34,267 nt of DNA from Eggerthellaceae bacterium (GTDB taxonomy: Bacteria > Actinomycetota > Coriobacteriia > Coriobacteriales > Eggerthellaceae): the NCBI GenBank assembly GCA_030533105.1, contig JAUNJT010000006.1:1-34267 (forward strand), read 5' to 3'. Both the position numbers and the translations under genes were made by a program. The notes under the pieces are model-generated. The model saw only the letters and a list, made by a program, of their open reading frames with translations, made no database searches and was not told the DNA's origin. This document shows positions 6,244-28,849 of this stretch, piece by piece (position 1 is the stretch's first letter; every line of letters begins with the position of its first letter).

Positions 6244-6282
6244 CCCCTTCGGCAAAAATGCCCCAAGAAGAAAGAGCATTAC

Positions 6283-7052: not shown

Positions 7053-7068
7053 ACTAATTTAGGTTTTT

Positions 7069-7130
7069 AGGCCTTCTTTCAGGATGCATTCGCTCCAAAG
7101 GATGCGTGAAAGCGTCTTGCGAAGTGGCCT
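7069..7130 (+). promoter_or_regulatory. Structured leader upstream of rmlA
   Basis: The outer arms AGGCC (7069-7073) and GGCCT (7126-7130) enclose CTTTCA (7076-7081) paired with TGAAAG (7107-7112). Inside those, GCATTC (7086-7091) pairs with GGATGC (7100-7105), including one G-U, around an eight-base loop. The nested pairs suggest a folded RNA element, but I do not recognise a known riboswitch and no T-run follows. Confidence 0.35.
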
Positions 7131-7208
7131 TAAGCGAGGTTTTGACTCGCATTTTAAGTGCAATGCGGCATCGAGATGCTTCGAGCGATCTTAAAGAAAG
7201 GAAGCGAG

Positions 7209-8111: not shown

Positions 8112-8114
8112 GCG

Positions 8115-9056: not shown

Positions 9057-9065
9057 GAGGAATAG

Positions 9066-10070
<1,005 letters not shown>

Positions 10071-10130
10071 GACCGGCAGGGGAGCTGAGGATTCGGCTCC
10101 ATCGAGGCGATTTCAAGGGAGAGGCTTCAT

Positions 10131-12590: not shown

Positions 12591-12652
12591 GGGATGCTCG
12601 TTTGGATGCGGATAGGGTTAACACGATTACGGGAGATACGCGGAGGTGCACG

Positions 12653-13237
12653 TTGGCTGACAATCAAATCGTGAGTGGGAATTTCACATTCACCAAGACA
12701 TCGATCGAAGGCGTTATCATCGTCGATCCGAAGTGCTATGCCGATGCGCGCGGCTACTTCATGGAAACCTATAAGCAGCCGGATTTCGTCCGTGGCGGCA
12801 TCGATGTGGAGTTCGTCCAAGACAATCAATCGAGCTCGACGAAAGGTGTTCTGCGCGGCCTGCATTATCAGATCGAGCATCCTCAGAGCAAGCTCGTCCG
12901 CGTTGTAAGCGGCACCGTTTTCGACGTGTGCGTTGATTTACGTCCTGGAAGCGCGACGTATGGGGCATGGGAAGGCGTGATTCTTTCGGCTGAGAACAAG
13001 CGCCAGTTCTTCATTCCCCGTGGTTTCGCGCATGGCTTTCTGGTGTTATCCGATACCGCCGAGTTTGTTTATAAATGCGATGACGTGTATCATCCGAATG
13101 ACGAAGGCGGCCTGATGTGGAACGATCCCGCGATCGGAATCGAGTGGCCCGCCTTGATGGGGGATGAATCATTCGATCCCGATAAGATCATCTTGAGCGA
13201 AAAAGATACGAAGCATCCGTCGCTAACCGAATTGTAG
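12653..13237 (+). CDS. rmlC: dTDP-4-dehydrorhamnose 3,5-epimerase RmlC
   Basis: This enzyme epimerises C3 and C5 of dTDP-4-keto-6-deoxyglucose, the third step to dTDP-L-rhamnose. The cupin protein of 194 residues shows DARGYFMETY, QDNQSSS, the active-site His in RGLHYQ, VFDVCVDLR and FIPRGFAHGF, all RmlC hallmarks. The start is read as TTG at 12653 because GGAGG lies six bases upstream and the length then fits the family (about 180-200). Upstream in-frame starts would run back into the preceding glycosyltransferase gene. It is separated from the other rml genes by one glycosyltransferase gene. Confidence 0.95.
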   Translation: MADNQIVSGNFTFTKTSIEGVIIVDPKCYADARGYFMETYKQPDFVRGGIDVEFVQDNQSSSTKGVLRGLHYQIEHPQSKLVRVVSGTVFDVCVDLRPGSATYGAWEGVILSAENKRQFFIPRGFAHGFLVLSDTAEFVYKCDDVYHPNDEGGLMWNDPAIGIEWPALMGDESFDPDKIILSEKDTKHPSLTEL

Positions 13238-13244
13238 GGGAAGC

Positions 13245-15149
13245 ATGGCAAGGTTACCTAAGGTAAAACATGTGCTCGGCATCGGAGTGCGTGCCGGCTT
13301 GAAGAGGTTCGGCTACGAGTTGCAGCCGGAGCAGCCTCCCATCATCGATCCCGATCCGTTTCCCGTCGACGCATGGACCGACGAGGCGTATGGCGAATGG
13401 ATCAAGGCGCATCAAGTGACCGATGAGGAGCTTGCACGCCAACGTGCGGCGTCAAGCGAGTTCGCGATTCAACCGACGTTCAGTTTCGTCGTTCCCTTGT
13501 TCCATACGCCCCTCGATTATCTCAACGATGTTGCCGAGAGCGTCTTGGCGCAAAGCTATGGCAGATTCGAGCTCGTGCTCGTCAATGCTACCCCGGAAGA
13601 CGAAGCGCTCACTTCGGCAGTCGATGCGCTTGCATCGTCCGATGAGCGCATCGTCATCGTTCCCCTGAGCAAGAATTACGGCATCTCGCTCAATTCCGAT
13701 TACGGTGTGACGGCATCGTCCGGCGATTTCGTGTGCTTCCTCGATCATGATGACTTCATCGAGCCGGACCTTCTGTTCGAGTACGTGTCTGCCATCAACG
13801 CCAATCCTTCCATCGGCCTTCTCTATTGCGATGAGGATATCGTGGAAGCTTGCGTCGAAGAGCCTGCATCCGATGATGCGGATGAGCCAAAGGACGGCGA
13901 GGGCGAACACGAGGAAGGTAAAGAAGAAGAGGACGTTGTTGTTGCTGTGCAGCATCGTGCCTGGCATTTCAAGAACCCGCTGTTCAAGCCGGATTATTCG
14001 CCAGAGCATCTGCTGTGCAAGAATTACGTCATGCACCTTTTGACCGTGCGCCGCGAGATATATGCGCTCATGCCGGTGGTCACGGCTGATTATGATGGCA
14101 GTCAAGACTACAACCTGACGCTTCTGGCATCATCCTCCGGGTGCGATGTGCATCATGTCGCCCGCGTTCTGTACCACTGGCGCGTCGGGCCGAATTCCAC
14201 GGCATCCAATCCTGGATCGAAGCCCTATGAGCGTACGTCGAATCGCTGGGCGATCCAAAGCCATATCGCGAGGAATGGTTTCAGGGCGACCGTCGTGGCG
14301 TCGGGCATTCCATTTATCCACAATCTCTGGTTCAAGCCGGGCAATGCGGTGTGCGTATCGGTGATCGTGCACGCTGACGGCGATGATGCTCAGACCCGCA
14401 CGCTCATAAAGCTTTTCGAGCAGGGGAATAGCTACGGCAATTACGAGATAGTGGTTGTCGGAGTTCGTGCGTCGGAGCTTGTCTCTGGCGTAAGAAACGC
14501 CCGAGCGGTCGATGATGCTTCCTTGAGCCTCATCCGTGCTTGGAACCTTGGAGCGCAGGCTGCGCAAGGGGAGTATCTTCTGTTCATGCCTCCCGGATCG
14601 ATGTTCATGACCGCCGAACCCCTCGAGCAGCTTTTGGGATTGAGCAGCATCAAGGGCGTTGGCGCAGTAGCCCCGAAATCGCTCTATGGCATGAGCGAGA
14701 ACAAGTGCTTCGGCATCGCCATCACTCCTGAGCGCGTGATGCCCATGTATCGCGGATACGATGATGATTTCCCGGGCTATGAGTGCAATCTCCGTGCGTT
14801 CCAGAATCCTTCCGCCGTTTCGTACGAGGGCATGATGACTCCTCGGGCACTCTTCATGGGTCTCGGCGGATTTGACGAGGACTTCAATAGCGTGATCGCA
14901 GCGGCGGATTATTGCATCCGCATGGGGGAGACGGGTTTCCGATGCGTTCAGACGCCGACCGTCAAGCTGCTCACCAAGGAGTCCTGCCCGTTCCCGCGCT
15001 ACGATTACTCGACTTCGACGGATGATTATCCCGAGGCTGACCAAAAGCTGTTCTATGCGAAGTGGCCGTCATGGCGCGAAAGCGGCGATCCCCATTTCAA
15101 TGTCAATCTCGATCAAACGTCGGGGTATCAGCAGATACCGCATGAATGA
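13245..15149 (+). CDS. Two-domain GT2 glycosyltransferase with decayed second active site and acidic insert
   Basis: This is the third member (634 residues) of the two-domain GT2 group. Domain 1 (from about 79, FSFVVPLFHTP) is intact, with LDHDD at 166-170 and LLYCDED at 192-198. A strongly acidic stretch (about 201-232) interrupts it, rich in Glu and Asp, where the paralogues have only a short loop. Domain 2 (from about 369) is degenerate: LFMPPGS (446-452) replaces the FLNND type of motif. The pattern is the reverse of the gene at 10131. AGGGGAAGC precedes the ATG, seven bases after rmlC. It probably acts in the same glycan pathway. Confidence 0.9.
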   Translation: MARLPKVKHVLGIGVRAGLKRFGYELQPEQPPIIDPDPFPVDAWTDEAYGEWIKAHQVTDEELARQRAASSEFAIQPTFSFVVPLFHTPLDYLNDVAESVLAQSYGRFELVLVNATPEDEALTSAVDALASSDERIVIVPLSKNYGISLNSDYGVTASSGDFVCFLDHDDFIEPDLLFEYVSAINANPSIGLLYCDEDIVEACVEEPASDDADEPKDGEGEHEEGKEEEDVVVAVQHRAWHFKNPLFKPDYSPEHLLCKNYVMHLLTVRREIYALMPVVTADYDGSQDYNLTLLASSSGCDVHHVARVLYHWRVGPNSTASNPGSKPYERTSNRWAIQSHIARNGFRATVVASGIPFIHNLWFKPGNAVCVSVIVHADGDDAQTRTLIKLFEQGNSYGNYEIVVVGVRASELVSGVRNARAVDDASLSLIRAWNLGAQAAQGEYLLFMPPGSMFMTAEPLEQLLGLSSIKGVGAVAPKSLYGMSENKCFGIAITPERVMPMYRGYDDDFPGYECNLRAFQNPSAVSYEGMMTPRALFMGLGGFDEDFNSVIAAADYCIRMGETGFRCVQTPTVKLLTKESCPFPRYDYSTSTDDYPEADQKLFYAKWPSWRESGDPHFNVNLDQTSGYQQIPHE

Positions 15150-15194
15150 TCGCATGCCGTCCATGCCGATTTGAAAAGGAGGTGAAGCTTAAAG

Positions 15195-15890
15195 ATGAAT
15201 CATAGCGTTCTTGCGATAATCCCTGCATACAACGAGCAGGACAGCATCGTATCTACGATGGATGATCTTAAGCGTCACGCTCCTTGGGTCGATTGCCTTA
15301 TCGTGGATGATGGATCGACGGATGCGACGGCAGAGATATGCCAAGAGTATGGGTTCAACTACGTCTCGCATGCCACGAACCTCGGATTGGCGGGTGCGTT
15401 CCAGACTGGCATGAAATACGCCCATCGCAAGGGCTATGACTACGCGATCCAGTTCGATGCCGATGGCCAGCATGATGCAGGGAGCATACAGGCGATGCTC
15501 GATGCCGCGGTGGCCAATAAAGCCGATATCGTCATCGGCTCGCGTTTCGTGACGGTCGAGAAGCCGAAAAGCGCTCGCATGGCTGGATCGGCGCTTCTCC
15601 AAGCCATCATCCGCTTAACGACGGGGCAGAAGGTCACCGATCCGACTTCCGGCATGCGTATGTACAACGCTGACATGATCGAGATATTCGCGAACACGTT
15701 CGACTTCGGTCCAGAGCCCGATACCATCGCGCTTCTGATGCGCCGTGGGGCGAAGCTCGTGGAGGTTCAGGTAACGATGCATGAGCGTACCGCAGGGAAG
15801 AGCTATCTCACCATGTCGAAATCCGTTACATATATGCTCTCGAAGAGTTTCTCGATTCTATTCGCTCAGTGGTTCAGGGGGCTTAAATGA
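15195..15890 (+). CDS. DPM1-like family 2 glycosyltransferase
   Basis: This 231-residue single-domain GT2 opens with SVLAIIPAYNEQDSI, then has VDDGSTDAT and the metal-binding FDADGQHD, close to dolichyl- or polyprenyl-phosphate mannose/glucose synthases. No membrane span is seen apart from modest hydrophobicity near the C-terminus. AAAAGGAGG lies upstream with a spacing of about ten bases. Its stop overlaps the start of the DUF2304 gene by four bases (ATGA). GT2-DUF2304 pairs are common in glycan loci, and the small membrane partner may anchor it. It likely makes or uses a lipid-linked sugar; the sugar is unknown. Confidence 0.92.
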   Translation: MNHSVLAIIPAYNEQDSIVSTMDDLKRHAPWVDCLIVDDGSTDATAEICQEYGFNYVSHATNLGLAGAFQTGMKYAHRKGYDYAIQFDADGQHDAGSIQAMLDAAVANKADIVIGSRFVTVEKPKSARMAGSALLQAIIRLTTGQKVTDPTSGMRMYNADMIEIFANTFDFGPEPDTIALLMRRGAKLVEVQVTMHERTAGKSYLTMSKSVTYMLSKSFSILFAQWFRGLK

Positions 15891-16255
15891 ATCTGACATT
15901 GACCATCGTTCTCGTGGCAGGCGCCCTCATCGTATTCTTGGGCATCGTATGGAAGATCCGCAAGGAAGAGTTGAGCGTTGCAAGCTCAGTGTTCTGGTTC
16001 TTCTTCACCATAAGCCTTTTACTTTTGGCGTTCTTCCCCCAGATCGCCTATTTCTTCTCGAATCTATTCAATATCGAGTCCCCGGCGAATTTCGTATTCC
16101 TCTACGTCATCGCCGTCCTATTGGTCCGCAGCTTCATGGACACCATACAGATCACGAAGCTGCATGCGAAGCTCAACGACCTCGTTCAAGAGCAGGCGCT
16201 CGCGGATAAATTCGAAGAGGATTCGCCTGCGGAAAACGACAGCGAAGAAGCATAG
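15887..16255 (+). CDS. DUF2304 family small membrane protein
   Basis: This 122-residue protein has three likely membrane segments (about residues 5-21, 32-58 and 67-82), a conserved VRSFMDTIQITKL-type stretch after the third, and a charged acidic tail. This matches DUF2304 proteins that accompany DPM1-like glycosyltransferases. The start overlaps the preceding gene by four bases (ATGA), indicating translational coupling. It has no catalytic motif and is probably a membrane partner of the preceding enzyme. Confidence 0.88.
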   Translation: MNLTLTIVLVAGALIVFLGIVWKIRKEELSVASSVFWFFFTISLLLLAFFPQIAYFFSNLFNIESPANFVFLYVIAVLLVRSFMDTIQITKLHAKLNDLVQEQALADKFEEDSPAENDSEEA

Positions 16256-16316
16256 AGGCTTATCCTTGAAAGGATGCACCGTATTCACGGCGCTCAGCGC
16301 ATCGATCTATCGATAA
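16256..16316. other. Convergent intergenic gap
   Basis: This is the end-to-end junction of the plus-strand glycan operon and the minus-strand GT4 gene. It has a small palindrome (ATCGATCTATCGAT) near 16301-16315 but no T-run, so no clear terminator is seen. Confidence 0.5.
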
Positions 16317-17507
16317 TTAAGCTTGCGAGGCGAGCTCGGAGGCCTGTTCGAGCAATCGCGCCGTTTCATCCCATGAATGGTTCTCGCGAACGCGACGGGC
16401 GATGTTCTCTGCACAACTCAGCCTGAAAGTAGGGTCATCAGCGAGCCGTATGATCGAAGACGCTATTGCGTCGGGATCGGCATCTGGAAGGATGATGCCG
16501 AAATCGTCTGATGGGATGAGCTCATGGGCGCCACCGACGTCTGTGATCACGGGTGCGACTTTGCATGCTACCGCTTCGAGCAGGGCGGTCGAGAATCCTT
16601 CAGAGCGGGTGGGGAGGCAGAAAATGTCCGACTCGAGCAAAAGCGCGGCGACGTCGCTGGGAGTGAGCGCGCCGAGGGCATGCACGCGATCAAGGCCTGA
16701 GGCCTCCACAGCCTCTCTAAGCGGTCCGTCTCCTGCGAGGAGGAAATGTATATCCTCGCGCCCAACGAGCCTCCAAGCAGCCTCTAAGAGCTCTGTAACG
16801 CCCTTCTCGGGACAGAGGCGGCCGCAGAAGCTCACGAGAACATGGTCAGAAGGAATGCCGAGCTCTTCTCGGAAATGCGCATCGTTCGCTGCAGCGACGA
16901 ACGCATCTGCGTCGATCGCGTTCGGGATGATGCCCTTCGAGGCGATGCCGAAGTGTTCGAGCCATGCACAGCTCTTTTCCGACACTCCGTAATAATCGGC
17001 AGGAACGCTCAGTATCCTTTTCGTTTGGGCATGCTCTATTGCCCGAACTCCCGTATCGAGCGCTGCATTCCCAAGCGTTAAGTGCGCAGATCCATGGTCG
17101 ATGATGATGGGGCGCTGTCCGATCTTTTCGGCGAATCTTGCGCCTGCGATGGAAAGCTCGTAGAACCGTGCGTTGATGACCACCTGATCGATTGCGCTTT
17201 CCTTAAGGCTTTCGAGGACGCGGTCAAGCGCCTGCTTTTTCGGAACGGGATATCGTCCACCAAGTGCTCGCGTGCTTTCAACGCGGACGACGATGACCTC
17301 GCCTACGACGTCCTCGCTCGAAACGCCATCCGCGTCGGTCGGGTAAATCGTCTCGATATCGGGTGATTCGTCATCGATGCGGCAGGTGACGATGATGACG
17401 GTGTTCCCACGGCGGGCAAGTGCGCAGCCGATATGCTCGGTAAACTGCTCTTGGCCTCCTACGTGAGGCGCGAACAGTGTCGTGAAGATACAGTAGGTCT
17501 TATGCAT
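16317..17507 (-). CDS. Family 4 glycosyltransferase
   Basis: This 396-residue GT-B fold retaining glycosyltransferase has an N-terminal acceptor domain with APHVGGQEQFTEHI near the start. The C-terminal donor domain has FCGRLCPEKGVTELLEA, AGDGPLREAV and the EGFSTALLEA phosphate/sugar-binding motif. It is cytosolic or membrane-peripheral and probably acts in assembly of the same polymer. It is transcribed alone, divergent from the LicD-family gene. No Shine-Dalgarno sequence lies upstream; instead an extended -10 sits six bases before the ATG, so the transcript may be leaderless. Confidence 0.92.
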   Translation of the reverse strand: MHKTYCIFTTLFAPHVGGQEQFTEHIGCALARRGNTVIIVTCRIDDESPDIETIYPTDADGVSSEDVVGEVIVVRVESTRALGGRYPVPKKQALDRVLESLKESAIDQVVINARFYELSIAGARFAEKIGQRPIIIDHGSAHLTLGNAALDTGVRAIEHAQTKRILSVPADYYGVSEKSCAWLEHFGIASKGIIPNAIDADAFVAAANDAHFREELGIPSDHVLVSFCGRLCPEKGVTELLEAAWRLVGREDIHFLLAGDGPLREAVEASGLDRVHALGALTPSDVAALLLESDIFCLPTRSEGFSTALLEAVACKVAPVITDVGGAHELIPSDDFGIILPDADPDAIASSIIRLADDPTFRLSCAENIARRVRENHSWDETARLLEQASELASQA

Positions 17508-17513
17508 GTTCCA

Positions 17514-17522
17514 AGTATAACA
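17514..17522 (-). promoter_or_regulatory. Extended -10 promoter for a leaderless GT4 transcript
   Basis: On the minus strand this reads TGTTATACT, an extended -10, followed by TGGAAC and then ATG. Transcription usually begins 6-8 bases after the -10, which puts it at or next to the start codon. No good -35 is seen. The lack of a ribosome binding site fits. Confidence 0.6.
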
Positions 17523-17544
17523 TGCTCTGTTTCGAGACTTTGTA

Positions 17545-17550
17545 TATACT
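17545..17550 (+). promoter_or_regulatory. Candidate -10 for the LicD-family gene
   Basis: TATACT lies 57 bases before the LicD-family start codon and faces away from the GT4 promoter, about 25 bases off. No convincing -35 is present, so this is a weak call. Confidence 0.35.
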
Positions 17551-17606
17551 TGATGCTACGCGAGCATCCCAAGAAGACGGATGCGGCAAGAAGGAGGACG
17601 TAGGGT

Positions 17607-18443
17607 ATGGAACTTGATCCATCGACGATGCAGCGGCTTCGGGCGGTTTTGCTCGAATTGCTGCAGGTTGTCGACAAGTTCTGCGCAGAGCACGGCATCA
17701 CGTACTTCCTCGAGGGAGGGAGTGCACTCGGTGCGGCGCGTCATGGCGGCTTCATCCCGTGGGATGACGATGCCGATGTCGGTATGCTGCGTGCGGACTT
17801 CGAGCGCTTCATAGCCGAAGCCGAACACGGTTTGCCCGATGGCTATTCTCTGCGCACCTACGACAACACTCCTGGATACGCGGGCATGTTCGCGAAGGTT
17901 TGCAAGGACGGTACGGTCTTCGAAACCCTCGAAACCAAGTCCGAGGGCATCTCGCAATCCATCTTCATCGATATCTTCCCCTATGATGATCTCTCAAGCG
18001 ACCCGAAGGAACGACGTCGGCAGATCAGCCAGGCGAGTAAATGGTCGAAGCTGAGCTATCTGTACCACGCGCCCTATGTGAATCTCCCTTGGAAAGGTGT
18101 GCTCGGAGCCTGCGGCCATGCCGCTTGCAGGGTGGTCCACCACCTGCTTCGCGCGCGCTATAGCCGTGAGCAAATCAAGGAGAACTTCGAAGCGTCGCTG
18201 CGCTTTACGGCAAAACCCTATGAAAACGTCAAACTCTTGGCATTCACCGACTTCGGTGAGATCCCGCGAAAAAGCATCGTTCCCGTCACTCGGATGCCCT
18301 TCGAAGGCATCATGCTCTGCTGCCCAGGGGATATAGCGTCATATCTCACGCACGGCTTCGGTGAGGATTGGACGGAATTGCCGCCCGTAGAGCAGCGCAA
18401 GACGCACGCTCCGGTAGCGCTCGATTTCGGTGATGACGCGTAA
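17607..18443 (+). CDS. LicD family phosphotransferase
   Basis: This 278-residue protein has the LicD signature [20 protein letters not shown] at about 36-55. This nucleotidyltransferase-fold motif is found in enzymes that move phosphocholine, or in relatives phosphoglycerol, phosphoribitol or phosphosugar groups, onto glycans. AAGGAGG precedes the ATG at a nine-base spacing. No choline uptake or activation genes are seen nearby, so the transferred group is not known. With the TagF-like and LtaS-like genes further on, it supports a phosphate-decorated polymer. It converges with the GlfT2-like gene, 21 bases apart. Confidence 0.92.
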
Positions 18444-18464: not shown

Positions 18465-20303
18465 TTAGTCCAAGTGAAGATATCCGCGCCAGAAGGGTCG
18501 CGAGATGAGGTAGGGGAATGCATCGCTCCATGCCTTCTTCACGGATGCGCCATCCTTCCTCAAGCGCTTCTTGATATCCTTTCCGCGTTTCATGATCGCG
18601 TTATAGCGTTCGCGGTCCATACGGCGGATGGAAGCGGTGTCATCTTCAGGGTTGTATGCGATGACGATGCGGCTCTTCTGGGTATTCTTATCAAGGACGC
18701 TCGTGTTGTTGTAGCTTAGGACCACGGGCGTATCCGTCAGCTGCGAATCGCGCAATTTGTGCGGATCGAAATCCCATGCCATCGTGATGCGGGTGAGCTT
18801 GTTGCCGTATGCGGGAAGTTCGTTGTTGATGGCGATCGAACGGGGATGCAACAGTGAGGCAAGCTGCAAATCGAGTTCTTCCTCGACCTCGGCACGCGGG
18901 ACGAACTTCTCGTTCCTCTTGCCATTCTCCTTGAGGATCTGCGCGCCATCCGCCTTCATGAGGAACTCGGGTCCGGCGAGATAGTCTTCGAGCGCATCGA
19001 GGATCAATTCCGCATTGCCATAGCAAAGCTGGGAGATCTCGCGCCAGAAGGTCTGCTTGGTCCTGAGCATGAAGAGGCGCTCGGGGCAGGCATGATGGAT
19101 GGTGTTCATGATCATGAAATTGCGCACGTATTGGTAATGGTCGACGGATCCCTTGAAACGTCCCTCGAAGCCTGCATGCCAGACACAGATGCCTGCAAGC
19201 GTCATGTACTTCGTCTGCAGACGGACGCCGTATTCGACGTCGTCGCAGCGGACGAAGACGGGGAGTGGCAAGCCCTTCTTCGCGATCAGGGATGCAGGCA
19301 TGCAGCAATACCACCACGCGCCATAGGCGTTCTTCACTTCCACGTTCGTGGATTCGCATTCTGCGATGTCTGCGACCTTCGTCATGTCGAAGCCGCGCTT
19401 GATAGACCCGTACAGACCGGGGAAGCGCACGAACGCGACATCCTCGCTTTGCATGGAAGGCTTCTCGAGCCTGAGCATGGCGCCGTTGATGCAGGCATCG
19501 CGGTAATCCTTGGAGCGGAGCTTCAGGAGCATGAACGTGCGGCGGAAGGATTCGGGGGAGATGGAGACGTCATCGTCCATGAGAAGGATATGAGTCGGAT
19601 CGAATTCGCTGGAAAGCGACTCCATCATGCCACGGCAGAAACCACCCGCACCGCCGGCATTGTCGTTCGGGAAGATATGCATATGCTCCCTGGCTGACTC
19701 GGGGATGACGTCAGCGTCAAGGCTGCGCCCGTTGTCGACGATGTTGACGGCGAGGTTTTCCGCGAGTTCGTCATCTCCCTCGAAGAGCGATGCGAACAAG
19801 GTGATGTTGGGAAGGATGTAACGCTCGTTGTTGAACGTCGTCATCGCAACGGCGAGGCGCACCTCGTTTGCCATGACCTTAGCGGTATCTCCTGCAAATG
19901 AGGCTTTCGTTGCAAGGCATTCGCCCTTCGTCGTTATGCTCATGCCAACCAAGCACGCATCGGTTTGGGGGATGGGGATATCAAGCGCGCCTTCCTGTGC
20001 GATGCAGTTCTTCTCGAGAAGGGGGGTCTTTTCGCCATCGGCATCGAAGGCGAAAAGCGCGAGCGTGAACGATCCCTCGATCTCGAGATGCAAAAAGAAG
20101 TCGGTCACGTTCGTGTACTGCTTCCATTTCGCAATCGAGAGCATGTTGAAATAGGTGCAGAAATCATAGGTGCTATCTGCCGCGAGGCGATAGGTATCGC
20201 CATCGTTTGCGATCGGGCTATCGCTGCGGTAGAACAGCTCGGTGCATTCCGAAGCGAGCGCTAATGGTTCGAATAGGATGTTTGCTAGCGTCTCTGTTTG
20301 CAT
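18465..20303 (-). CDS. GlfT2-like galactofuranosyltransferase
   Basis: This 612-residue protein resembles mycobacterial GlfT2 (637 residues) in layout: an N-terminal beta-rich region (1-145), a GT-A domain opening at VAMTTFNNE, and a helical C-terminal part. Key residues line up: metal-binding MDDDVS (Asp243-245), Trp330-331, the catalytic Asp pair in VRCDDVEYG (354-355) and His376 in VWHAGF. The family transfers galactofuranose from UDP-Galf. No UDP-galactopyranose mutase gene lies in this window, so the donor would have to be made elsewhere. The ATG at 20303 is chosen because AAAGGGACG lies just upstream; an in-frame ATG at 20357 has no such site. It is the last gene of the minus-strand cluster. 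Confidence 0.88.
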   Translation of the reverse strand: MQTETLANILFEPLALASECTELFYRSDSPIANDGDTYRLAADSTYDFCTYFNMLSIAKWKQYTNVTDFFLHLEIEGSFTLALFAFDADGEKTPLLEKNCIAQEGALDIPIPQTDACLVGMSITTKGECLATKASFAGDTAKVMANEVRLAVAMTTFNNERYILPNITLFASLFEGDDELAENLAVNIVDNGRSLDADVIPESAREHMHIFPNDNAGGAGGFCRGMMESLSSEFDPTHILLMDDDVSISPESFRRTFMLLKLRSKDYRDACINGAMLRLEKPSMQSEDVAFVRFPGLYGSIKRGFDMTKVADIAECESTNVEVKNAYGAWWYCCMPASLIAKKGLPLPVFVRCDDVEYGVRLQTKYMTLAGICVWHAGFEGRFKGSVDHYQYVRNFMIMNTIHHACPERLFMLRTKQTFWREISQLCYGNAELILDALEDYLAGPEFLMKADGAQILKENGKRNEKFVPRAEVEEELDLQLASLLHPRSIAINNELPAYGNKLTRITMAWDFDPHKLRDSQLTDTPVVLSYNNTSVLDKNTQKSRIVIAYNPEDDTASIRRMDRERYNAIMKRGKDIKKRLRKDGASVKKAWSDAFPYLISRPFWRGYLHLD

Positions 20304-20363
20304 TTCGTCCCTTTCTTGCAAAACGGTCAGGTAAAAGGCGACTGTTCTTTCAAGCATCGTGCT

Positions 20364-22463
20364 TTATTCGGTGCAATCCCAAACCTTTCCTGTTTGGTGC
20401 CAGTTGCCGAAGTCGAGCACGTATCCGTCGATCTCGTATTCGATGAACTCGTAATCATTCGTGCCATCGTGCGTGGGATGGACGTAGTAGCGGACGCGCG
20501 ACTCGCCCTCGGCGGTCTCATCGAAGGCGGTGCCGTACTTGCTCCCGTCGCCGGTGATCGCCTTCATGATGGATGCATGGAGGTCGAATTGGCTGATGGG
20601 GGCATCCGAGTACACGAACGGGTCGTTCTGAGCCTCGCCTTGGTTCGCGGGCTTGACGAGCATGATGGGGCTGCCCGGCCTATCTAAGACATGATCGGGA
20701 CCATCGCCCCAGAACCAGTACCCATGGTCGGCGGTGATGACGATATAGGAGTTGTCATACACGCCGAGTTCTTTGAGCTGCTTCAGGTACTCGGAAACCA
20801 TCTTCATGACGCCAAGGCCCTGTTGATCCTCGGTGACCTCTTGGCCATCGGATATCTGCTTGCCGTTCTCATCGATCGTGTAGGGGATATGGACGCCGAG
20901 CAAGTGGATCAGGCGGAACGAGCCGACTTCGTCTTTGTTGATGCTGAGCCCGATATCCTGGAGCCTCTCGTAGTAGCGAGCATCGTTCATGACGTAAACG
21001 GTCTTCGCGGGATCGTCGGCCGAACCGGCGGATTGGGCCATCGACTCGTTGATCTCGTCGGTGTAGAACCAGAAGAAGCGCTTCAAGATCCATGGCATGT
21101 CACGGTATAAGGATGCCTTGTACATGACCTGGACCGTTGATACCGCGTTTAGGGTGGTTGCTTCGATGGGATGCATGTTCATGGCGCGTTCGGTGGTGTA
21201 GGCGAAACCCGCAGCCGTCTCAGCGCCGCTAACGCCGAACGTGTCGGTATAGATGCCCAGAGAGTAACCGGTTGCTTTCAAATCATCCAAGAACGATGAG
21301 CGCTCGTAGACCGTCGAGAGATAGTGCGAGTAGGTCTCATCGTGCTGGATGAATTCTCCAGTCAAGAACCAGGGGAGCGCATACCTCGTCGGCGCGATCG
21401 TGCCACCGACATCGCGATAATACGTGAACCCTGTCATCTCATCGAGCATATCCGGGTTGCTCTGCATGAGCCAATCGAGCTCATAGACGTCGTACGTATC
21501 TAAGACGAACACGATGACGTTGTTCTTATCGGATATGTCATAGAGACCATCTTCGGTTAGGTAGGTGCTCGTATCCTTAGAGGACTTGCCCATGATGCCA
21601 GGGTCGGTGAACAGGCTGCCGATGCCGACGGCTTCGACGATGGCGACGCATACCGCAAGGATGCACAGGACGTTTCTACACAGCGTCGGCTTCTTCCAGA
21701 AGAACACGGCGATCGCGGCGATGCCCACGAGCCAGGAGAAGCCGTTCAGGAGCGTGACCTTGGTGTAGTTCCACCAATCGACCGCCGCGCCGTTCGCACT
21801 CGGGAGCTTCGCGTTTCCGAAAAGCGCCTGCAGATAGCAGAGGAGACCGAGGCCGATGAAGAAGATGACGGCGATGTTGAATGCCTTGCCGCGAAGAAGC
21901 GAGATGAGCAGGGAAAGCACGACCCAGATGATCAAGCCGGCGAGGGCGATGGGCTGCCAGGTCTCGGCAAGGCCGAACAGAAGGCTGCCAGATGCGCCGC
22001 CGATGAGCTCATACGGCGTTGCAACGAAGAGCGTGAACGTGAGGAAGAATGCTGCGATAGCTGCGAATCCGAGGCGCTTGGGCCAGGAGAGCTTCTGAGG
22101 CTCCTTCTTCTTTATGGTGATAAGGTCGCGTGCGCGCTCATCGGCATATGCATGTGCATCCTCATCGTCACTGGCGATGCGGGAGACTTCCTCCTCGACC
22201 GACTTTCCCGCGTTCTCATCGATCTTGAGCAACTTGAAGATCGCTTTGCGCGATCTGCGGAAAGCGACGCCGGCAACTGCGCCTAAAGCGACGGCAACGC
22301 CCGCCAAGGCCTGGATCGTGTAGGTCATGACGGACGGGTCGACGTAAGCGTATGCGTCTTCTACAAGTGCGAACGAGCAGATGGCTGCGACGACGATGAG
22401 CGCCACGGAGTCGAATGCGGCGATGGTGCAGCGTTTCGCGATTGCAACGGTGCGGCTAGTCAT
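20364..22463 (-). CDS. Membrane sulfatase-fold (LtaS-like) hydrolase/transferase, intact paralogue
   Basis: This 699-residue protein has roughly seven membrane spans in residues 17-285 and an alkaline-phosphatase/sulfatase-type domain at about 310-645, probably extracellular. Metal and nucleophile candidates are Asp322 (VFVLDTYD), Thr in GTIAPTRYALPW (355-366), His525 (LLGVHIPY) and Asp579-His580 (TADHGYW), the same order as in LtaS phosphoglycerol transferases. A conserved VDPSVMTYTIQALAG block (41-55) is shared with the gene at 24734. The start overlaps the end of the YidC/TagF-like gene by eight bases, with GAGGTG upstream, so the two are likely translationally coupled. It may move a phospho-group onto the exported glycan, as GacH does in streptococci; this is inference. 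Confidence 0.88.
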   Translation of the reverse strand: MTSRTVAIAKRCTIAAFDSVALIVVAAICSFALVEDAYAYVDPSVMTYTIQALAGVAVALGAVAGVAFRRSRKAIFKLLKIDENAGKSVEEEVSRIASDDEDAHAYADERARDLITIKKKEPQKLSWPKRLGFAAIAAFFLTFTLFVATPYELIGGASGSLLFGLAETWQPIALAGLIIWVVLSLLISLLRGKAFNIAVIFFIGLGLLCYLQALFGNAKLPSANGAAVDWWNYTKVTLLNGFSWLVGIAAIAVFFWKKPTLCRNVLCILAVCVAIVEAVGIGSLFTDPGIMGKSSKDTSTYLTEDGLYDISDKNNVIVFVLDTYDVYELDWLMQSNPDMLDEMTGFTYYRDVGGTIAPTRYALPWFLTGEFIQHDETYSHYLSTVYERSSFLDDLKATGYSLGIYTDTFGVSGAETAAGFAYTTERAMNMHPIEATTLNAVSTVQVMYKASLYRDMPWILKRFFWFYTDEINESMAQSAGSADDPAKTVYVMNDARYYERLQDIGLSINKDEVGSFRLIHLLGVHIPYTIDENGKQISDGQEVTEDQQGLGVMKMVSEYLKQLKELGVYDNSYIVITADHGYWFWGDGPDHVLDRPGSPIMLVKPANQGEAQNDPFVYSDAPISQFDLHASIMKAITGDGSKYGTAFDETAEGESRVRYYVHPTHDGTNDYEFIEYEIDGYVLDFGNWHQTGKVWDCTE

Positions 22464-24390
22464 TGTCCGCACCTCGCTTCTCACTGGCATCCTTCGCGTG
22501 CGCCTTCTGTTTCTCGAGGATATCCTGCAGAAGATATTCGCCCGCAGCTTGCGCGCCGTGGCCGATGTTGAAGATATGGTCGCTTCTGACCTTATCGATG
22601 CGTGCCTTCCACGATTGCTGATCGGAGAGCATATTCGCAGCAACTTGGCCGATCTCTCCTGCGTGTTCCGGCGCGATGGAGATGCCGATGAGGTTGCGCA
22701 GCGAGATGTCGCTCGGCTCGATTCCGAGCTCTTGCCACTTCGGGTTTCCGACTTTCATGGGCGTATCGATGAAGATCGAGGGCTTGAGCGTCGAGAACGA
22801 GAACTCGCACGCGGTCGACGACCAGTCGGTTACGAGGATGTCGGAAGTGAAGATCGATTCATGGGACGAGAAGTCGCGCTCGAAATACAGCTCGTCTTCC
22901 GGGACGCGTGCATAACGCTGCTGCAACGCTTCCCAGCGGGCCTTATAGCGCTTCGTATACTCGGGGTGCGGGCGGACGATGATCTTCCAGCCATGCCCGA
23001 GCATGGATTTGAGCATGTCATCGATGCAGGTATCGAGGATATTGTCCTCCTGCCACGAAGGGGCGATGAGCAGCGTAGGAACGGGATTCTTCTTGCCGGC
23101 AAGCGCCGTATACGATGCGATCTCCTCATCGAGCAGGTCGTAACCGCATTTGATGAGCTTCTTGCGCTTAAGCCCGTAGAGCTCTTCGGCACGTCTGATC
23201 TCGCGTGCCTGATGAGGTCCGGCGCACAGTATCGTGTCGTAATGATCGTAGGCTTCCCGCGCAGGGGTCAGGTGCGTTGACATCATGTGATGGAACATGA
23301 ACACGTACTCGACATCCTTGCGGACATACGAGCGCTTGATGTAGTAGTTATCCAGATCCTCCAAAGTCGACACGACGATGTCGGCATCCATCTTCATCAT
23401 CAAGGTGATGGCGCGCTTCTCGCCGATGTAGTAGGGGATGATGCGCGGATTGGTCTTGGAGAGTTCGAATACCTGGTCGTTCGGATCGTTGGTAACGTAA
23501 TGGATGACGGTATTGGAATTCGCGAGCAGATAGCGGATCGCGCCCTTGAAGTATTTGAAGAAGCCGCTTCCCTCGGAATAGAACACGATGTGCTTGTTCA
23601 CGATATTCATGAAGCGCTTGTAGTCGGCCTTCTCGCGTTTCGCGAGCGGGTCGCGCTGATACCACTTGGTCTTGCGCTCGGCATCGAGGGCGTTGAGCGC
23701 CTCGAATTCCTTGCGCGATTCCTCCAGATCCTCGTAGTCGATGTACTTCTTCGGCTTGATGATGATATTGCAGAGAACCTGGACGAGGATGGCGCTTAGG
23801 TTCGAGCAGATCCAGTAGAAGGCCATGCCGGCTGCAACGAAGATGCCCAGGAAGAACGAGAGCGCGATCGAGAGGCCGTTGGTGAGATTCTTCTCTGCGC
23901 GGGTTTGCTCGCGCTGGAGCGGGTTGATGCGATTCTGAGCGAAGCCCATGAGCACGGCGGAAAGGCCTGCGAGGATTGGCATGATCCAGGAAATGCCGCC
24001 ATCGGTGAAGGGGACGAGGCCCAAGAACTCGGTTCCGGGGGCGCCGTTATCGGTGATGGAGTGGATGACGTCAACCAAACCGAACAGGATGATGATCTGA
24101 ACCGCAAGCGGTACGAGGCTCAAAAGGGGATGGTAGTGTTTTTCCTTATAGAGTGCGTTCTGCTTCTCGCCAATGGTCTCGCTATCTCCGAAGTACTTGA
24201 TTTTGATACGGAATAGATCCGGCATGAGCTGCACCATGACGATGGCGTTCTTCTGGCACCAGAGCGCCATGGGCATCAAGATGACTTTGGTGATGAGCGT
24301 GAACAGGAGGATGGCGATCCACCAATTGCCCGTCAGGTCGTAACATGGCTGGACAATCAGCGACAGAACGCTGGCTATTGCTTCAAGCAT
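22456..24390 (-). CDS. YidC/Oxa1-like membrane domain fused to CDP-glycerol glycerophosphotransferase (TagB/TagF-like) domain
   Basis: This is a 644-residue fusion. Residues 1-215 resemble the YidC/Oxa1/Alb3 core: LTGNWWIAILLFTLITKVILMP, a charged hairpin ending KQNALYKEKHYHPLLSLVPL, and further membrane spans to about 210. Lys35 stands where insertases have the groove Arg. A charged linker (215-265) leads into residues about 265-625, which look like a TagB/TagF glycerophosphotransferase: FMFHHMMSTHL (365-373), CAGPHQ (389-394), APSWQEDN (443-450), IVRPHPEY (471-478) and TDWSST (521-526). TagF-like enzymes add glycerol phosphate from CDP-glycerol to a lipid-linked glycan. TAGGAGG lies upstream at an 11-base spacing. 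The next gene overlaps its stop. The fusion is evident from one uninterrupted reading frame; whether the YidC-like part inserts proteins or only anchors the enzyme is unknown. Confidence 0.87.
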   Translation of the reverse strand: MLEAIASVLSLIVQPCYDLTGNWWIAILLFTLITKVILMPMALWCQKNAIVMVQLMPDLFRIKIKYFGDSETIGEKQNALYKEKHYHPLLSLVPLAVQIIILFGLVDVIHSITDNGAPGTEFLGLVPFTDGGISWIMPILAGLSAVLMGFAQNRINPLQREQTRAEKNLTNGLSIALSFFLGIFVAAGMAFYWICSNLSAILVQVLCNIIIKPKKYIDYEDLEESRKEFEALNALDAERKTKWYQRDPLAKREKADYKRFMNIVNKHIVFYSEGSGFFKYFKGAIRYLLANSNTVIHYVTNDPNDQVFELSKTNPRIIPYYIGEKRAITLMMKMDADIVVSTLEDLDNYYIKRSYVRKDVEYVFMFHHMMSTHLTPAREAYDHYDTILCAGPHQAREIRRAEELYGLKRKKLIKCGYDLLDEEIASYTALAGKKNPVPTLLIAPSWQEDNILDTCIDDMLKSMLGHGWKIIVRPHPEYTKRYKARWEALQQRYARVPEDELYFERDFSSHESIFTSDILVTDWSSTACEFSFSTLKPSIFIDTPMKVGNPKWQELGIEPSDISLRNLIGISIAPEHAGEIGQVAANMLSDQQSWKARIDKVRSDHIFNIGHGAQAAGEYLLQDILEKQKAHAKDASEKRGADND

Positions 24391-24559
24391 CAGTGAATAA
24401 TCCTCCTACGTCGTTTAAACCCGACTTTTCATTTTACTACCATTCGCTTTGCATAAATGAAAATGAAGGCGAAGTTCATGAAAAATGCAAGGTTAGTTAT
24501 GCTTTATTACATGTTATGGGGACAACGTCCAGGATGCGGTTTCCCGACCCTTCGATCAT
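24391..24559 (-). other. AT-rich intergenic region with inverted repeat
   Basis: The stretch between the broken sulfatase frame and the YidC/TagF-like gene is markedly richer in A and T than its surroundings from about 24410 to 24530. TTTCATTT (24427-24434) and AAATGAAA (24454-24461) form an eight-base inverted repeat. A minus-strand TAAAAT at 24431-24436 within it could be a -10 for the YidC/TagF-like gene, about 40 bases upstream of its start. No -35 is convincing. Confidence 0.45.
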
Positions 24560-24733: not shown

Positions 24734-26668
24734 TTATTTGGATCCGTCGCCAGTGATGGCTTTCATGATGGATGCATGCAGATCGTACTGGCTTATCGGG
24801 GCATTCGAGAGCTTGGCGGGGCCGTCTTGATCCCCCGCACCGGCTTTCTTGACGAGCATGATGGGGCTATTGGGGACAGCAAGCGGCACTTCATCCCAGA
24901 TCCATGTGCCATGGTCGCAGGAGATGATGATGGTCGTCTTGTCGTAGACGCCCAGCTCCTTGAGCTGATGGAGGTACTCGGAGACCATCTTCATGACGCC
25001 GAGGCCCTGGCGGTATTCGTTGCTCATCGTCCCTTCGGGCACTGTGTTGCCATTCTCATCAAGGTTGAACGGCTCATGGATTCCCATCAGGTGGATGATG
25101 CGGAAGGAGCCCGTATCGTCATCGTTGATGCGCAGGCGGGTTTGCTTGAGCTTTTCGTAATAGCCCGCATCGTCCATGACGTAGGGCGTGTTCGCCGGAT
25201 TGGTGCCCGGTTCGTTCTTCTGGGCCATGGCCTGGTTGATCTGGTCGGTATAGAACCAGAAGGCCGGCTTTGCCACCCACGGCAGATTGCGATAACAGGA
25301 TGCCTTGTACATGACCAGCAAAGCCGCGGGGACATCTAAGCCGATCGTCTCGATGGGCTTGATGTTGAAGGCGCGTTCTGAAACGTATTCGATGCCATGG
25401 GCAGCTTCTGCTCTCGTCGCACCGAACGTGTCGGTGTAGATGCCTATCGAGTAACCGGTTGCTTTCAAGTCATCGAGGAAGGTCGAACGATCGTAAATGG
25501 TAGAAAGGTAATGGGAATAGAGCTCGTCATGCTGGATCATCTGGGCGGTCATGATCCAAGGGAGGGCATATCTGGTCGGCGCGATCGTGCCCGATACATC
25601 GCGGTAATAGGTGAAGCCCGTCATCTCGTCGAGCATGTCAGGATTCGTGCTGTACAGATAGCTGAGCGTCGCGTTGTCATACCAATCGAGTAAGAACAAC
25701 ACGACGTTTTGCTTATCGGAGATGTCGAACAGGCCATCCTCGGTGACATACGCTTCCGTATCGTTCGCGGACTTTCCCATGACGACCGGATCGAAGAAGA
25801 GGCTGCCTACGCCAACCGCTTCGACGATCGCCACGCATACGGCTAAGGCGCACAAGGCGTTCCGGCACAGCGTCGGCTTTCTCCAAAGAAAGATACCGAG
25901 CGCGGCGATGCCTAAAAGCCACAGGATGCCGTTGATGATCGTCGTTGCCGTGAAGTCGCCCCATACAACCTCGGTGCCATCGGCGGAGGGGAGGGATCCA
26001 TTCCCGAAAAGCGCCTGCAGATAGCAGAGCAATCCGAATCCGATGACGGAAACGATGGCGACATTGAAGCTTTTGCCTTTAAGAAGCGAGATCAGGATGG
26101 CGATCACGATCCAGATGACGATGCCGGCTATGGCGAAGGGCCTCCATGTTTCGGAAAGGCCGAACATGAGGCTTTCCGATCCTCCGCCGATCATCTCGTA
26201 TGGGGATGCGACGAAGAACGTGAATGTGAAGAAACCCGAAGCGATGATTGCGAACAAGAAGCGCGACTTCCAAGAGGCCTCACCTGTGCTGTTCTTCGTC
26301 GTCGAGGCGATCATCCTTTTCGCTTGCCTGTCCGCAACGGCATGCGCCCGCACATCGCCCTCCTCGATGCGGAACACCTTCCTCTCGACCGTCTTGCCGG
26401 CGTTCTCGTCGATCCGGAGCAGATTGAAAAGCACCCTTCTCGTTCTTCGGAAGGCGACTCCGGCAACCGCTCCGAGCGCTACGGCGACACCGGCGAGCGC
26501 TTGGATCGTGTAGGTCATGACGGAGGGATCGACATACGCGTATGCGTCCTCGGCGAATCCGAGCGCGACGATGGAAGAAATGCTTACGAGGGCAAACGCA
26601 TCAAAGGCGGCGATGACGCAGCGCTTTGCGATAGATGCACTACCTTTGTGTCGTCTGTTCGAAGCCAT
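24734..26668 (-). CDS. Membrane sulfatase-fold (LtaS-like) protein, truncated by a nonsense codon
   Basis: This 644-residue reading frame is paralogous to the 699-residue protein encoded at 20364 over its whole length: the same VDPSVMTYTIQALAG block, about seven N-terminal spans, VLFLLDWYD, GTIAPTRYALPW, LMGIHEPF and SCDHGTW. It ends at TAA directly after GDGSK, where the paralogue continues with Tyr (TAC). The catalytic residues come before the stop, but the C-terminal 58 residues are lost. The ATG at 26668 has only a weak site (GGCGGA) 23 bases after the DUF4422 gene. It may be inactive, a shortened active form, or rescued by readthrough; sequence alone does not tell. Confidence 0.85.
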   Translation of the reverse strand: MASNRRHKGSASIAKRCVIAAFDAFALVSISSIVALGFAEDAYAYVDPSVMTYTIQALAGVAVALGAVAGVAFRRTRRVLFNLLRIDENAGKTVERKVFRIEEGDVRAHAVADRQAKRMIASTTKNSTGEASWKSRFLFAIIASGFFTFTFFVASPYEMIGGGSESLMFGLSETWRPFAIAGIVIWIVIAILISLLKGKSFNVAIVSVIGFGLLCYLQALFGNGSLPSADGTEVVWGDFTATTIINGILWLLGIAALGIFLWRKPTLCRNALCALAVCVAIVEAVGVGSLFFDPVVMGKSANDTEAYVTEDGLFDISDKQNVVLFLLDWYDNATLSYLYSTNPDMLDEMTGFTYYRDVSGTIAPTRYALPWIMTAQMIQHDELYSHYLSTIYDRSTFLDDLKATGYSIGIYTDTFGATRAEAAHGIEYVSERAFNIKPIETIGLDVPAALLVMYKASCYRNLPWVAKPAFWFYTDQINQAMAQKNEPGTNPANTPYVMDDAGYYEKLKQTRLRINDDDTGSFRIIHLMGIHEPFNLDENGNTVPEGTMSNEYRQGLGVMKMVSEYLHQLKELGVYDKTTIIISCDHGTWIWDEVPLAVPNSPIMLVKKAGAGDQDGPAKLSNAPISQYDLHASIMKAITGDGSK

Positions 26669-26691: not shown

Positions 26692-27735
26692 CTATCTGCG
26701 GAACAGCCCGCGTACGGTATTGGCTGCGGCACGGCGTTTGCTGCCATAGGGGAGCAGATGCTCCTTCACGCGGGCGATGGCGCCGGGTTCATCCTTTTCG
26801 TGGACGATCGGCCCATTTTCCAAAAGCGCGGCGAGCTCTTCTTCACCGTAGGTGTATTCGAAGAAGACGAGCGGGTATTCCCCGATGTTCGCCTTGCCTG
26901 TGCGTGCAAGGTGCAAAACGAACGTGCTGAACAAGATCTCTCCGAGATACCCGAAAACACGTTCTCCGTTTTCGGGGTCGTTGGAGAAATCGAAGCTCTC
27001 ATCTAAGGCGTCAAGGATGTCGAATTCGAAAGCGCAGAGCTCATCGAACAGGTCGCGTCTTGCGATGAAGCAGTTGTATCCGATATAGGTCGTCCCGCAA
27101 AGGTAGTCCGAAAGATCCTTGCGATAAGCGCGCTGACGCTTCGCGACTGCTTTATCGAGCGCCTTTAGGATGTCCTTCGTAACGAGTCCATAGGCGATCA
27201 TGTGCTTTGCAACGGTGCGTTTCGGTCCCTTGGGCGTGTAGACTCCGCGGACATCCCACTCATTTGGGATGATCATGTCGTACTTTTGCACCGTTTGGGT
27301 GATAAGCGCATCGTCATCGAGGCGGTATTCGCTTGCGGCTTCGGGCGTCAGGTCGACCACTTCGATTTGAGCATGGTCGTTCGATTCATGGTCGAGGTCG
27401 TCGAAGCAGAAGTAGCGGCGATAGTGGCAGAGTCCGATGTACTCGGCCTCGATGTGCTTCCATGCCCAATATTGCGCGGTGAGCTCGCAGAAACGGGGAT
27501 TGCGCATAGAGATGTTATCGCCTTCGTCATCGGGCTGCATCGAGGCGATCGCCTCTAGTGCGAGTGCGGCGCCGACATGGATGGGCAGATACGCTCCCGC
27601 CTTCGGAATCGCAGTGGGTTTGTGGCAAGAAACCGCGATGACGACGGTGGGCACATCGGCTCCGGCCGCGGCATCGACGCCGGATTTGGTCGCCTGCGAT
27701 GCGACATCCTTCAGCTTCTTGACGATGTTGATCAT
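26692..27735 (-). CDS. DUF4422 family glycosyltransferase-like protein
   Basis: This 347-residue protein has the features of DUF4422 proteins of capsule and wall-glycan loci: VVIAVSCHKP near the start, LTAQYWAWKHI, and the hallmark YIGLCHYRRYF near residue 100, then YDMIIPNEW. These are thought to act as glycosyltransferases, but donor and linkage are generally unknown. AAAGGAG lies upstream of the ATG at 27735, which overlaps the stop of the preceding gene (ATGA). An in-frame ATG at 27870 lies well inside that gene and is less likely. It is part of the minus-strand operon. Confidence 0.88.
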   Translation of the reverse strand: MINIVKKLKDVASQATKSGVDAAAGADVPTVVIAVSCHKPTAIPKAGAYLPIHVGAALALEAIASMQPDDEGDNISMRNPRFCELTAQYWAWKHIEAEYIGLCHYRRYFCFDDLDHESNDHAQIEVVDLTPEAASEYRLDDDALITQTVQKYDMIIPNEWDVRGVYTPKGPKRTVAKHMIAYGLVTKDILKALDKAVAKRQRAYRKDLSDYLCGTTYIGYNCFIARRDLFDELCAFEFDILDALDESFDFSNDPENGERVFGYLGEILFSTFVLHLARTGKANIGEYPLVFFEYTYGEEELAALLENGPIVHEKDEPGAIARVKEHLLPYGSKRRAAANTVRGLFRR

Positions 27736-28739
27736 TTCACATCTCCTTTGAATGAGAAGATCTCGGGATGCGCTGCGTGGTAGGCGAGCATATCCTCGGT
27801 TTGCGGCCCGTATCCGAGATGGCCGGCAAGCAGGTTCTCGCAGACAAGGATGGGACGACCCGTGAGGCATGCGAACATGGCAACGTGCTCCTCGTCATCC
27901 CCTAAGCCGATCTTGCGGCCGTTTACGGGGAAATGGTCGAAGGCTTCCCATGTCGCACGCGAGAACAAAATGACCCCGATGCTGAAACGTCCCGGGCACA
28001 GCGAGTAGGAGAAAGGCTGCAGCGCCAAGGCACCGGCGAGCACGTCGATATCCGCGAGTACCTCCTGGCTTTCTCCCCACATGTATCGGGAGACGCGCGC
28101 ATCTTCGAGGAGGGCGGTGTTATGGGTGATGCCGTCCGTGTATGCCACTTCGCAGAGTCCCTGGGCCTTAAAATCCTCGGTAAGTCCCACAAGATCGAGG
28201 AGCCTGATGCTCGTATACGTGTTCACGTTGAGCAAAGGCGCCGCGAATGCAGGGCGCCAACACGTCGTCGAACTCACGCGCTCTAAGCCTTCGCGCAAGC
28301 CTTCGAAGAGCCCTTCGGTCACGAAGATATCCTCATCGACCTTGTATATCCACGTTGCACATCGGTGGAGCTCGATGGCCTTGTTCTGGATGTTCGCAAG
28401 CTGGTTGACTTCGGTTGATAGATACGACCATCCATGTTCCGCGGCGATTGCATCGAGGCGTTCGTCGAACAATCCGCTCGAGAGCACGCATACGTCGAAA
28501 TCATCCGGCAGCGCTGCTGCCAAGCGTGCGAAGACGTCATCCCAAAGCGTGGGCTTGTAGCCTGCGAGGATCATGCACATGGATAAAGACCCATGGCTCC
28601 TGTCTATGAATTGATAGGGTGCCTTGGTTACAGACGCAGGATCGGCCAGCGCATCGAGGGCGCCGCGCCGTGCGACAGCGAGTTTATGGCCGATTGGATT
28701 CTTATCGATTGCCTTGAATGCCTTTTTCGCAAACGACAT
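27732..28739 (-). CDS. Putative glycosyltransferase of unknown family in the glycan operon
   Basis: I do not recognise this 335-residue protein with certainty. It has a mixed alpha/beta pattern with SMCMILAGYKP near 50, a block that reads like a GT-A domain (DVCVLSSGLFDERLDAIAAEHGW), and YKVDEDIFV, which resembles a DxD metal site. A later LGDDEEHVAMFA may hold a catalytic acid. No signal peptide or membrane span is seen. The ATG at 28739 is chosen because AAGGA lies about ten bases upstream; an upstream in-frame ATG at 28817 falls in the promoter region. It is the first gene of the minus-strand cluster and overlaps the DUF4422 gene by four bases, so the two are probably made together. Confidence 0.75.
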   Translation of the reverse strand: MSFAKKAFKAIDKNPIGHKLAVARRGALDALADPASVTKAPYQFIDRSHGSLSMCMILAGYKPTLWDDVFARLAAALPDDFDVCVLSSGLFDERLDAIAAEHGWSYLSTEVNQLANIQNKAIELHRCATWIYKVDEDIFVTEGLFEGLREGLERVSSTTCWRPAFAAPLLNVNTYTSIRLLDLVGLTEDFKAQGLCEVAYTDGITHNTALLEDARVSRYMWGESQEVLADIDVLAGALALQPFSYSLCPGRFSIGVILFSRATWEAFDHFPVNGRKIGLGDDEEHVAMFACLTGRPILVCENLLAGHLGYGPQTEDMLAYHAAHPEIFSFKGDVK

Positions 28740-28805
28740 AGGTGGCGATTCCTTTCTTGACGGCGGCGCTGGAGCTTTGAAACATAAGGCCTTTATGCCG
28801 ATAGA

Positions 28806-28811
28806 AGTATA
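28806..28811 (-). promoter_or_regulatory. Candidate -10 of the minus-strand glycan operon
   Basis: On the minus strand this reads TATACT, about 66 bases before the first start codon. Just upstream (28817-28828 on the plus strand) lies the imperfect palindrome ATTCACATGAAT, which could be an operator shared with the divergent glutamine synthetase promoter. The -35 is weak. Confidence 0.4.
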
Positions 28812-28849
28812 CGGCATTCACATGAATAATTGCACGTCGTAGGGTTTAT

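Follow-up and report, generated by a model that had tools for sequence, protein, structure and literature searches.

The stretch analysed here (the window) comprises 34,267 nucleotides (nt) of an Eggerthellaceae bacterium (GenBank assembly GCA_030533105.1, contig JAUNJT010000006.1, positions 1 to 34,267). On its minus strand, at 22,456-24,390, one gene joins a YidC/Oxa1 insertase-like domain to a TagF-like phosphotransferase domain. Comparison of related loci shows, at the level of gene content and order, that this YidC-TagF fusion belongs to a module of three parts whose other enzyme is a membrane 'sulfatase', that the module also exists in a mirrored wiring, with YidC joined to the sulfatase and TagF encoded separately, and that the catalytic residues are intact in both enzymes of this conserved operon. 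For clostridia, the same comparison shows a link of the module to CMP-phosphonate and CDP-glycerol synthesis. We propose, with chances that we judge evenly balanced, that the three parts form a transmembrane machine adding phosphate- or phosphonate-linked headgroups to surface glycans.

The fusion protein and its sulfatase partner

The fusion gene, preceded by a ribosome-binding site (AGGAGG, 24,402-24,407) ahead of its ATG, is an uninterrupted open reading frame of 644 codons; all genes and gene features of the window located individually below lie on the same strand. An earlier note on this DNA, made from the letters alone, had read the frame as YidC/Oxa1 plus TagF, and both domain calls stood. 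PF02096 matches residues 23-208 (E 2.1e-27, 96.5 bits, cut-off 35) and PF04464 residues 263-540 (E 8.1e-9, 35.3 bits, cut-off 22.1). An AlphaFold2 model built on a 43-sequence alignment (mean predicted local distance difference test score, pLDDT, 89) was compared by Foldseek with the PDB, and both folds were recovered: the top match was the wall teichoic acid polymerase TagF (3l7l, E 8.9e-12), and E. coli YidC (6al2) was in the top ten (E 1e-7, 215 columns). Since dozens of independent genomes encode the whole fusion, it is due neither to chance nor to an assembly artefact; a chimera of assembly is ruled out by the presence of the same single frame in several RefSeq isolate genomes.

The YidC-like half (residues 1-215, 23,746-24,390) shares with the YidC/Oxa1/Alb3 family the fold, the five-helix core, the cytosolic hairpin (helices 39-65 and 70-83 in the AlphaFold model), a positively charged groove position and the YW motif in the last core helix. 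Its TIGR03592 score, 83.4 bits, lies slightly under the cut-off of 84.3. It differs from the family in having no free C-terminal tail, the place of which is taken by a linker (residues 216-262, 23,605-23,745, the gap between the two Pfam matches) and the TagF domain. The groove position, arginine in most YidCs (which we take to be R366 of the E. coli protein), is occupied by Lys35 (24,286-24,288), as the earlier note had supposed and as the alignment bears out. Among the YidC-TagF relatives this position holds lysine in 56 of 57 and arginine in the remaining one; among 21 stand-alone YidCs, 15 have arginine and four have lysine. Lysine at this position was considered as a hallmark of the fusion and dropped, given these four. 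The YidC-sulfatase proteins carry no charge there (15 Asn, two Gln and two Ser in 19 rows, one of which is a mis-assigned fragment). A more distinctive feature is the C2 loop, QNRINPLQREQ (23,905-23,937), which lies between core transmembrane helices 3 and 4 and is predicted to be cytosolic: by column comparison, the pattern QNxxNPLQREQ is near-invariant across the YidC-TagF group and not conserved in stand-alone YidCs. In a phylogenetic tree the YidC domains of the fusions cluster together, separate from stand-alone YidCs, and those of the YidC-sulfatase proteins form a long-branched clade of their own; the row L103_6909, labelled YidC-sulfatase, is an artefact that matches only in part.

The TagF-like half (residues 263-625, 22,516-23,604) belongs by fold to the GT-B CDP-alcohol phosphotransferases. 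Some relatives score under the PF04464 cut-off, and a sequence search of the PDB with a profile of this half gave no match, whereas the fold search did find TagF. Profile alignment places the two conserved histidines of ordinary TagFs on invariant residues, namely His367 (23,290-23,292), counterpart of the WHG histidine, and His475 within RPHP (22,966-22,968). The motif DWSS (residues 522-525, 22,816-22,827) aligns with the DYSS of TagF, and its D522, W523 and S524 are invariant among the relatives. Compared with other clostridial TagFs, the TagF halves of the fusions and those of the mirror system are sisters (Shimodaira-Hasegawa-like approximate likelihood ratio support 97, on long branches).

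The 3' end of the fusion gene overlaps the downstream membrane-protein gene by 8 nt, ATGACTAG, an overlap already recorded in the earlier note, which had missed both the LtaS/EptA-type nature of this neighbour and its membership of a module. The neighbour (20,364-22,463, 699 residues) has an N-terminal YVDPSVMTYTIQ helix, and, as in LtaS, GacH and the EptA/MCR proteins, its membrane region leads into a domain of the alkaline-phosphatase superfamily. Its profile finds LtaS (2w5r, E 2.6e-13), and fold matches to its model (pLDDT 85.7) include MCR-1, PbgA, LtaP and EptA. The threonine nucleophile and metal ligands of the LtaS type (D322, T359, H525, D579 and H580) are invariant in 45 sequences. 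On the LtaS equivalog model NF053595 it scores 17.9 bits (cut-off 970), and the partner is therefore a relative of LtaS and not LtaS itself. A hydropathy count agrees with the TagF domain lying inside the cell and the sulfatase domain outside.

Distribution of the module and its mirrored wiring

Scanning of genome contigs yielded 73 related loci from Coriobacteriia and Clostridia, some of them in genomes of isolates (Eggerthella sinensis, Slackia faecicanis, Adlercreutzia mucosicola, Raoultibacter timonensis and Clostridium aminobutyricum). PF02096 was matched in 94 of 99 Coriobacteriia, 11 of which, this genome among them, have YidC frames of 640-1430 codons (a count by open-frame length only). 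PF02096 was matched in every one of 118 genomes sampled across the clostridial class, few of which have fused frames: frames of YidC-TagF size were seen in G220 and in G099, a chosen genome, and frames of YidC-sulfatase size in G156, G179, G201 and G218, both kinds having been checked. The fusion exists in addition to the cell's own YidC. Each of the 12 fusion-bearing genomes checked has one stand-alone YidC, and in the present genome this is an ordinary protein of about 265 residues encoded upstream of Jag-like and RsmG genes, so that loss of the cell's YidC is ruled out. The earlier note had named two findings that would undo its reading, a first half without the YidC fold and an assembly error in a genome devoid of a separate YidC; neither was encountered.

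Of the 46 loci where the fusion is flanked by 2 kb or more on each side, 33 have a membrane sulfatase directly adjoining YidC-TagF, and 38 have one somewhere in the locus; at L036, L041 and L062, a diverged sulfatase is encoded two genes upstream. In some Coriobacteriia (L032, L033 and L054), YidC, TagF and sulfatase make up a single open reading frame of about 1380-1400 codons, and a fourth such triple fusion, of 1430 residues, occurs in G047 (L107). The mirror form, found in clostridia and in this genome, is a YidC-sulfatase fusion beside a separate TagF that carries a YIDPGTGSMLFT membrane helix. This pairing, recognized by the TagF helix pattern YIDPGTG[SG]MLF, is seen at 13 of 15 loci. 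One of them is on contig C87 of the present genome (L077:7975-12159), where the YidC-sulfatase gene is directly followed by a TagF with the N-terminus MNDMLLYIDPGTGSMLFT. The genome thus holds three PF02096 genes, the ordinary YidC, the YidC-TagF of the window and the YidC-sulfatase of C87, and therefore both wirings. Where Coriobacteriia have the window form of the module, the YVDPSVMTYTIQ helix of its sulfatase is related to the helix of the mirror TagFs.

Of a different kind are PF02096 frames of 460-495 residues in four clostridial genomes (G114, G145, G191 and G224; for example L108:5087-6550), in which the YidC match is split by a large insert. Three of these genomes are under 1 Mb.

Phosphonate and CDP-glycerol genes beside the fusion

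At 11 clostridial loci, YidC-TagF is accompanied by phosphoenolpyruvate (PEP) mutase, and at most of these also by phosphonopyruvate decarboxylase (Ppd) and an iron-containing alcohol dehydrogenase. The PEP mutase, Ppd and aminoethylphosphonate aminotransferase members tested at clostridial loci reach the NCBI equivalog cut-offs; the alcohol dehydrogenase is below its own. L068 and L091 each hold a nearly complete set of CMP-phosphonate genes on a single strand. Among 117 sampled Clostridia, PEP mutase is present in four of the five genomes with a fusion and in three of the 112 others (p 2.3e-5, uncorrected for kinship). LicD, the transferase named for phosphonyl tailoring (Pnt) clusters (PMC6697681), was detected at just one of the 11 PEP-mutase loci, which makes the TagF-like domain the obvious candidate transferase. 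The TagF half of C. aminobutyricum (L066) resembles the phosphonate allele; a PEP mutase, which its locus did not show, was therefore expected elsewhere in the genome, and was found there.

The relation between TagF half and donor can be followed within one locus of Anaerotruncus sp. G3 (L042:4796-9887), in which two YidC-TagF genes in divergent orientation flank a XerC/D-like tyrosine recombinase, with an inverted repeat of 1137 nt. The copies are about 99% identical from -56 to about +780, that is, over the YidC half, and their C-terminal TagF halves share about 50% DNA identity. One copy precedes a true glycerol-3-phosphate cytidylyltransferase (205 bits, cut-off 165), and the other CMP-phosphonate genes; the TagF half on the phosphonate side shares 75% and 71% identity with TagFs of two further phosphonate loci and 45% with its twin. 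From these identities and neighbours, it appears that the TagF half changes with the donor, and that the YidC half is indifferent to it. The inverted pair is possibly a phase-variable switch of the TagF half.

Gene context thus suggests a CDP-polyol as donor of the TagF half at some loci and a CMP-phosphonate at others. With TagF and TagB proteins the domain shares the GT-B fold, both conserved histidines and, at L042, the link to glycerol-3-phosphate cytidylyltransferase. In contrast to them, the TagFs of the module form a divergent clade, are fixed either to a YidC domain or to a YIDPG helix, and often lie near CMP-phosphonate genes; we know of no classical TagF with such a donor.

For the genome under study, phosphonate was considered as the substrate and is unsupported, PEP mutase not having been found there. 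On contig C199 (L083:462-1859), a glycerol-3-phosphate-cytidylyltransferase-like domain is fused to a Gfo/Idh/MocA-type domain; this TagD-reductase protein is 43% identical to the product of a gene beside YidC-TagF in L062, and may be the source of the CDP donor in this genome. A LicC-like gene is another candidate for headgroup supply.

Proposed surface decoration, rival explanations and the surrounding genes

In the proposed route, the cytosolic TagF-like domain would transfer an activated headgroup onto a membrane lipid, from a CDP-polyol in some genomes and from CMP-hydroxyethyl- or aminoethyl-phosphonate in others; the fused YidC domain, which is not the cell's general insertase, would carry or scramble the lipid-linked headgroup to the outer leaflet; and the sulfatase-fold partner would move it, outside the cell, from the lipid to a surface glycan. 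The roles of the two enzymes are deduced from their families; we infer the lipid acceptor and the translocation. EptA and MCR-1 transfer the headgroup of phosphatidylethanolamine outside the cell. GacH likewise moves glycerol phosphate from phosphatidylglycerol onto a glycan (PMC12282279), and E. coli YidC scrambles lipids in liposomes, proteins of its family moving lipids across membranes in vitro (PMC10491306). If the sulfatase works like GacH or EptA, a special headgroup would have to be attached to a carrier lipid on the inner side, which would then cross the membrane. The observed arrangements, with YidC on either enzyme or joined with both, are those expected of a translocator between the two. 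That the YidC fold acts here as a dedicated headgroup flippase instead of a protein insertase, in a new class of three-component system with an exchangeable TagF half (possibly phase-variable in one genome), is a tentative proposal, the prospects of which we put somewhat short of even.

Several observations weigh against this picture. TagF proteins normally extend polymers; the headgroup might therefore be received by a lipid-linked glycan, with YidC doing no more than anchoring the enzyme. Scrambling by insertases in vitro lacks specificity and may be incidental. The PF00884 match of the partner is only at threshold, no sulfatase is within reach at a few fusion loci (for example L012, L027, L042 and L070), and the YVDP helix is missing from most clostridial sulfatase partners. 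Finally, no PEP mutase was found in the present genome, which is 89% complete.

The strongest rival, although we consider it unlikely, makes of YidC a membrane anchor or scaffold only: TagF would act on an undecaprenyl-linked glycan that leaves by an ABC (ATP-binding cassette) or Wzx exporter, and the sulfatase would work separately outside. TagF enzymes do need membrane attachment, the window encodes an ABC exporter, rhamnose genes and several family 2 glycosyltransferases (GT2s), and the mirror TagF is held by a single YIDPG helix, so that a tether can suffice. Anchoring, one of three roles offered by the earlier note, is thus possible, but it leaves unexplained why YidC is joined now to the cytosolic enzyme and now to the extracellular one, with a YIDP or YVDP helix on the other partner in many loci, and why triple fusions exist; the near fixity of the C2 loop also goes beyond the needs of an anchor. 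We find it improbable that YidC is a dedicated insertase or chaperone folding the multi-spanning sulfatase next to it, a second role from the same note. The 8-nt overlap of the genes and the charge kept at Lys35 speak for it, and the separate YidC in all 12 fusion genomes checked against it. Moreover, YidC is fused to that very protein in the mirror genes, where the groove charge is lost, and in triple fusions would be part of the same chain as its own client; to our knowledge, LtaS-type proteins elsewhere need no private insertase. Still more doubtful, indeed hardly to be expected, is a conduit in which TagF polymerises a polyol phosphate into the YidC groove and the sulfatase continues outside. 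The domain order, with a cytosolic phosphotransferase on one side of YidC and an extracellular one on the other, would suit such a conduit, but YidC has a shallow, lipid-exposed groove, and we know of no passage of a polymer through it; exporters are encoded in the window locus, and on chemical grounds the phosphonate donors deduced for clostridial loci would yield single decorations and not polymers. The remaining role proposed in the earlier note, presentation of a lipid-linked substrate, is the best fit of the three to the wider evidence.

Each part of the module is known, and their union is undescribed in the papers searched: no account of YidC fused to a glycerophosphotransferase of the TagF type or to a sulfatase was found in that literature, most subscription journals being outside it. 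LtaS, GacH and the EptA/MCR enzymes use an ordinary phospholipid donor; here a cytosolic loader and a YidC domain accompany the sulfatase. Three-component glycan modification systems (GtrA/GtrB/GT-C) combine lipid loading in the cytosol, flipping and transfer outside; the module resembles them in logic only, with the YidC fold in the place of the flippase, and all three protein families differ. The Pnt pathways with LicD-type transferases share with the clostridial fusion loci Ppm, Ppd, AEPT or the iron-containing alcohol dehydrogenase, and adjoining cytidylyltransferases; they differ in that these fusion loci usually lack LicD, the TagF-like fusion being the likely transferase (PMC6697681 for the Pnt pathways). 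The same study called the steps beyond formation of the C-P bond enigmatic, and mentions neither YidC nor a sulfatase.

There is a real chance that the role of YidC in the module is categorically new. If so, it would be a natural case of a YidC-fold protein doing something besides protein insertion, and the physiological relevance of lipid scrambling by insertases would become directly testable. The module would also supply candidates for the missing transferase and export steps of phosphonate tailoring left open in that 2019 study, and a route for glycan decoration in common gut Coriobacteriia and clostridia.

In the window, the sulfatase gene is followed by one for a GlfT2-like protein of galactofuranosyltransferase type (18,465-20,357; PF17994, E 2e-8), and positions 1,015-18,443 hold a polysaccharide cluster with an ABC exporter, deoxythymidine diphosphate (dTDP)-rhamnose genes, several GT2s and a LicD gene, which likely makes the glycan to be decorated. 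On the other side, a frame of 361 codons (27,732-28,817), upstream of a DUF4422 gene, has no Pfam match. A second membrane sulfatase gene (24,734-26,668, 644 residues) lies upstream of the fusion. Its stop codon (24,734-24,736) is premature by 58 codons in comparison with an 88%-identical counterpart in L035, and the alignment of the two runs on past the stop in the same frame.

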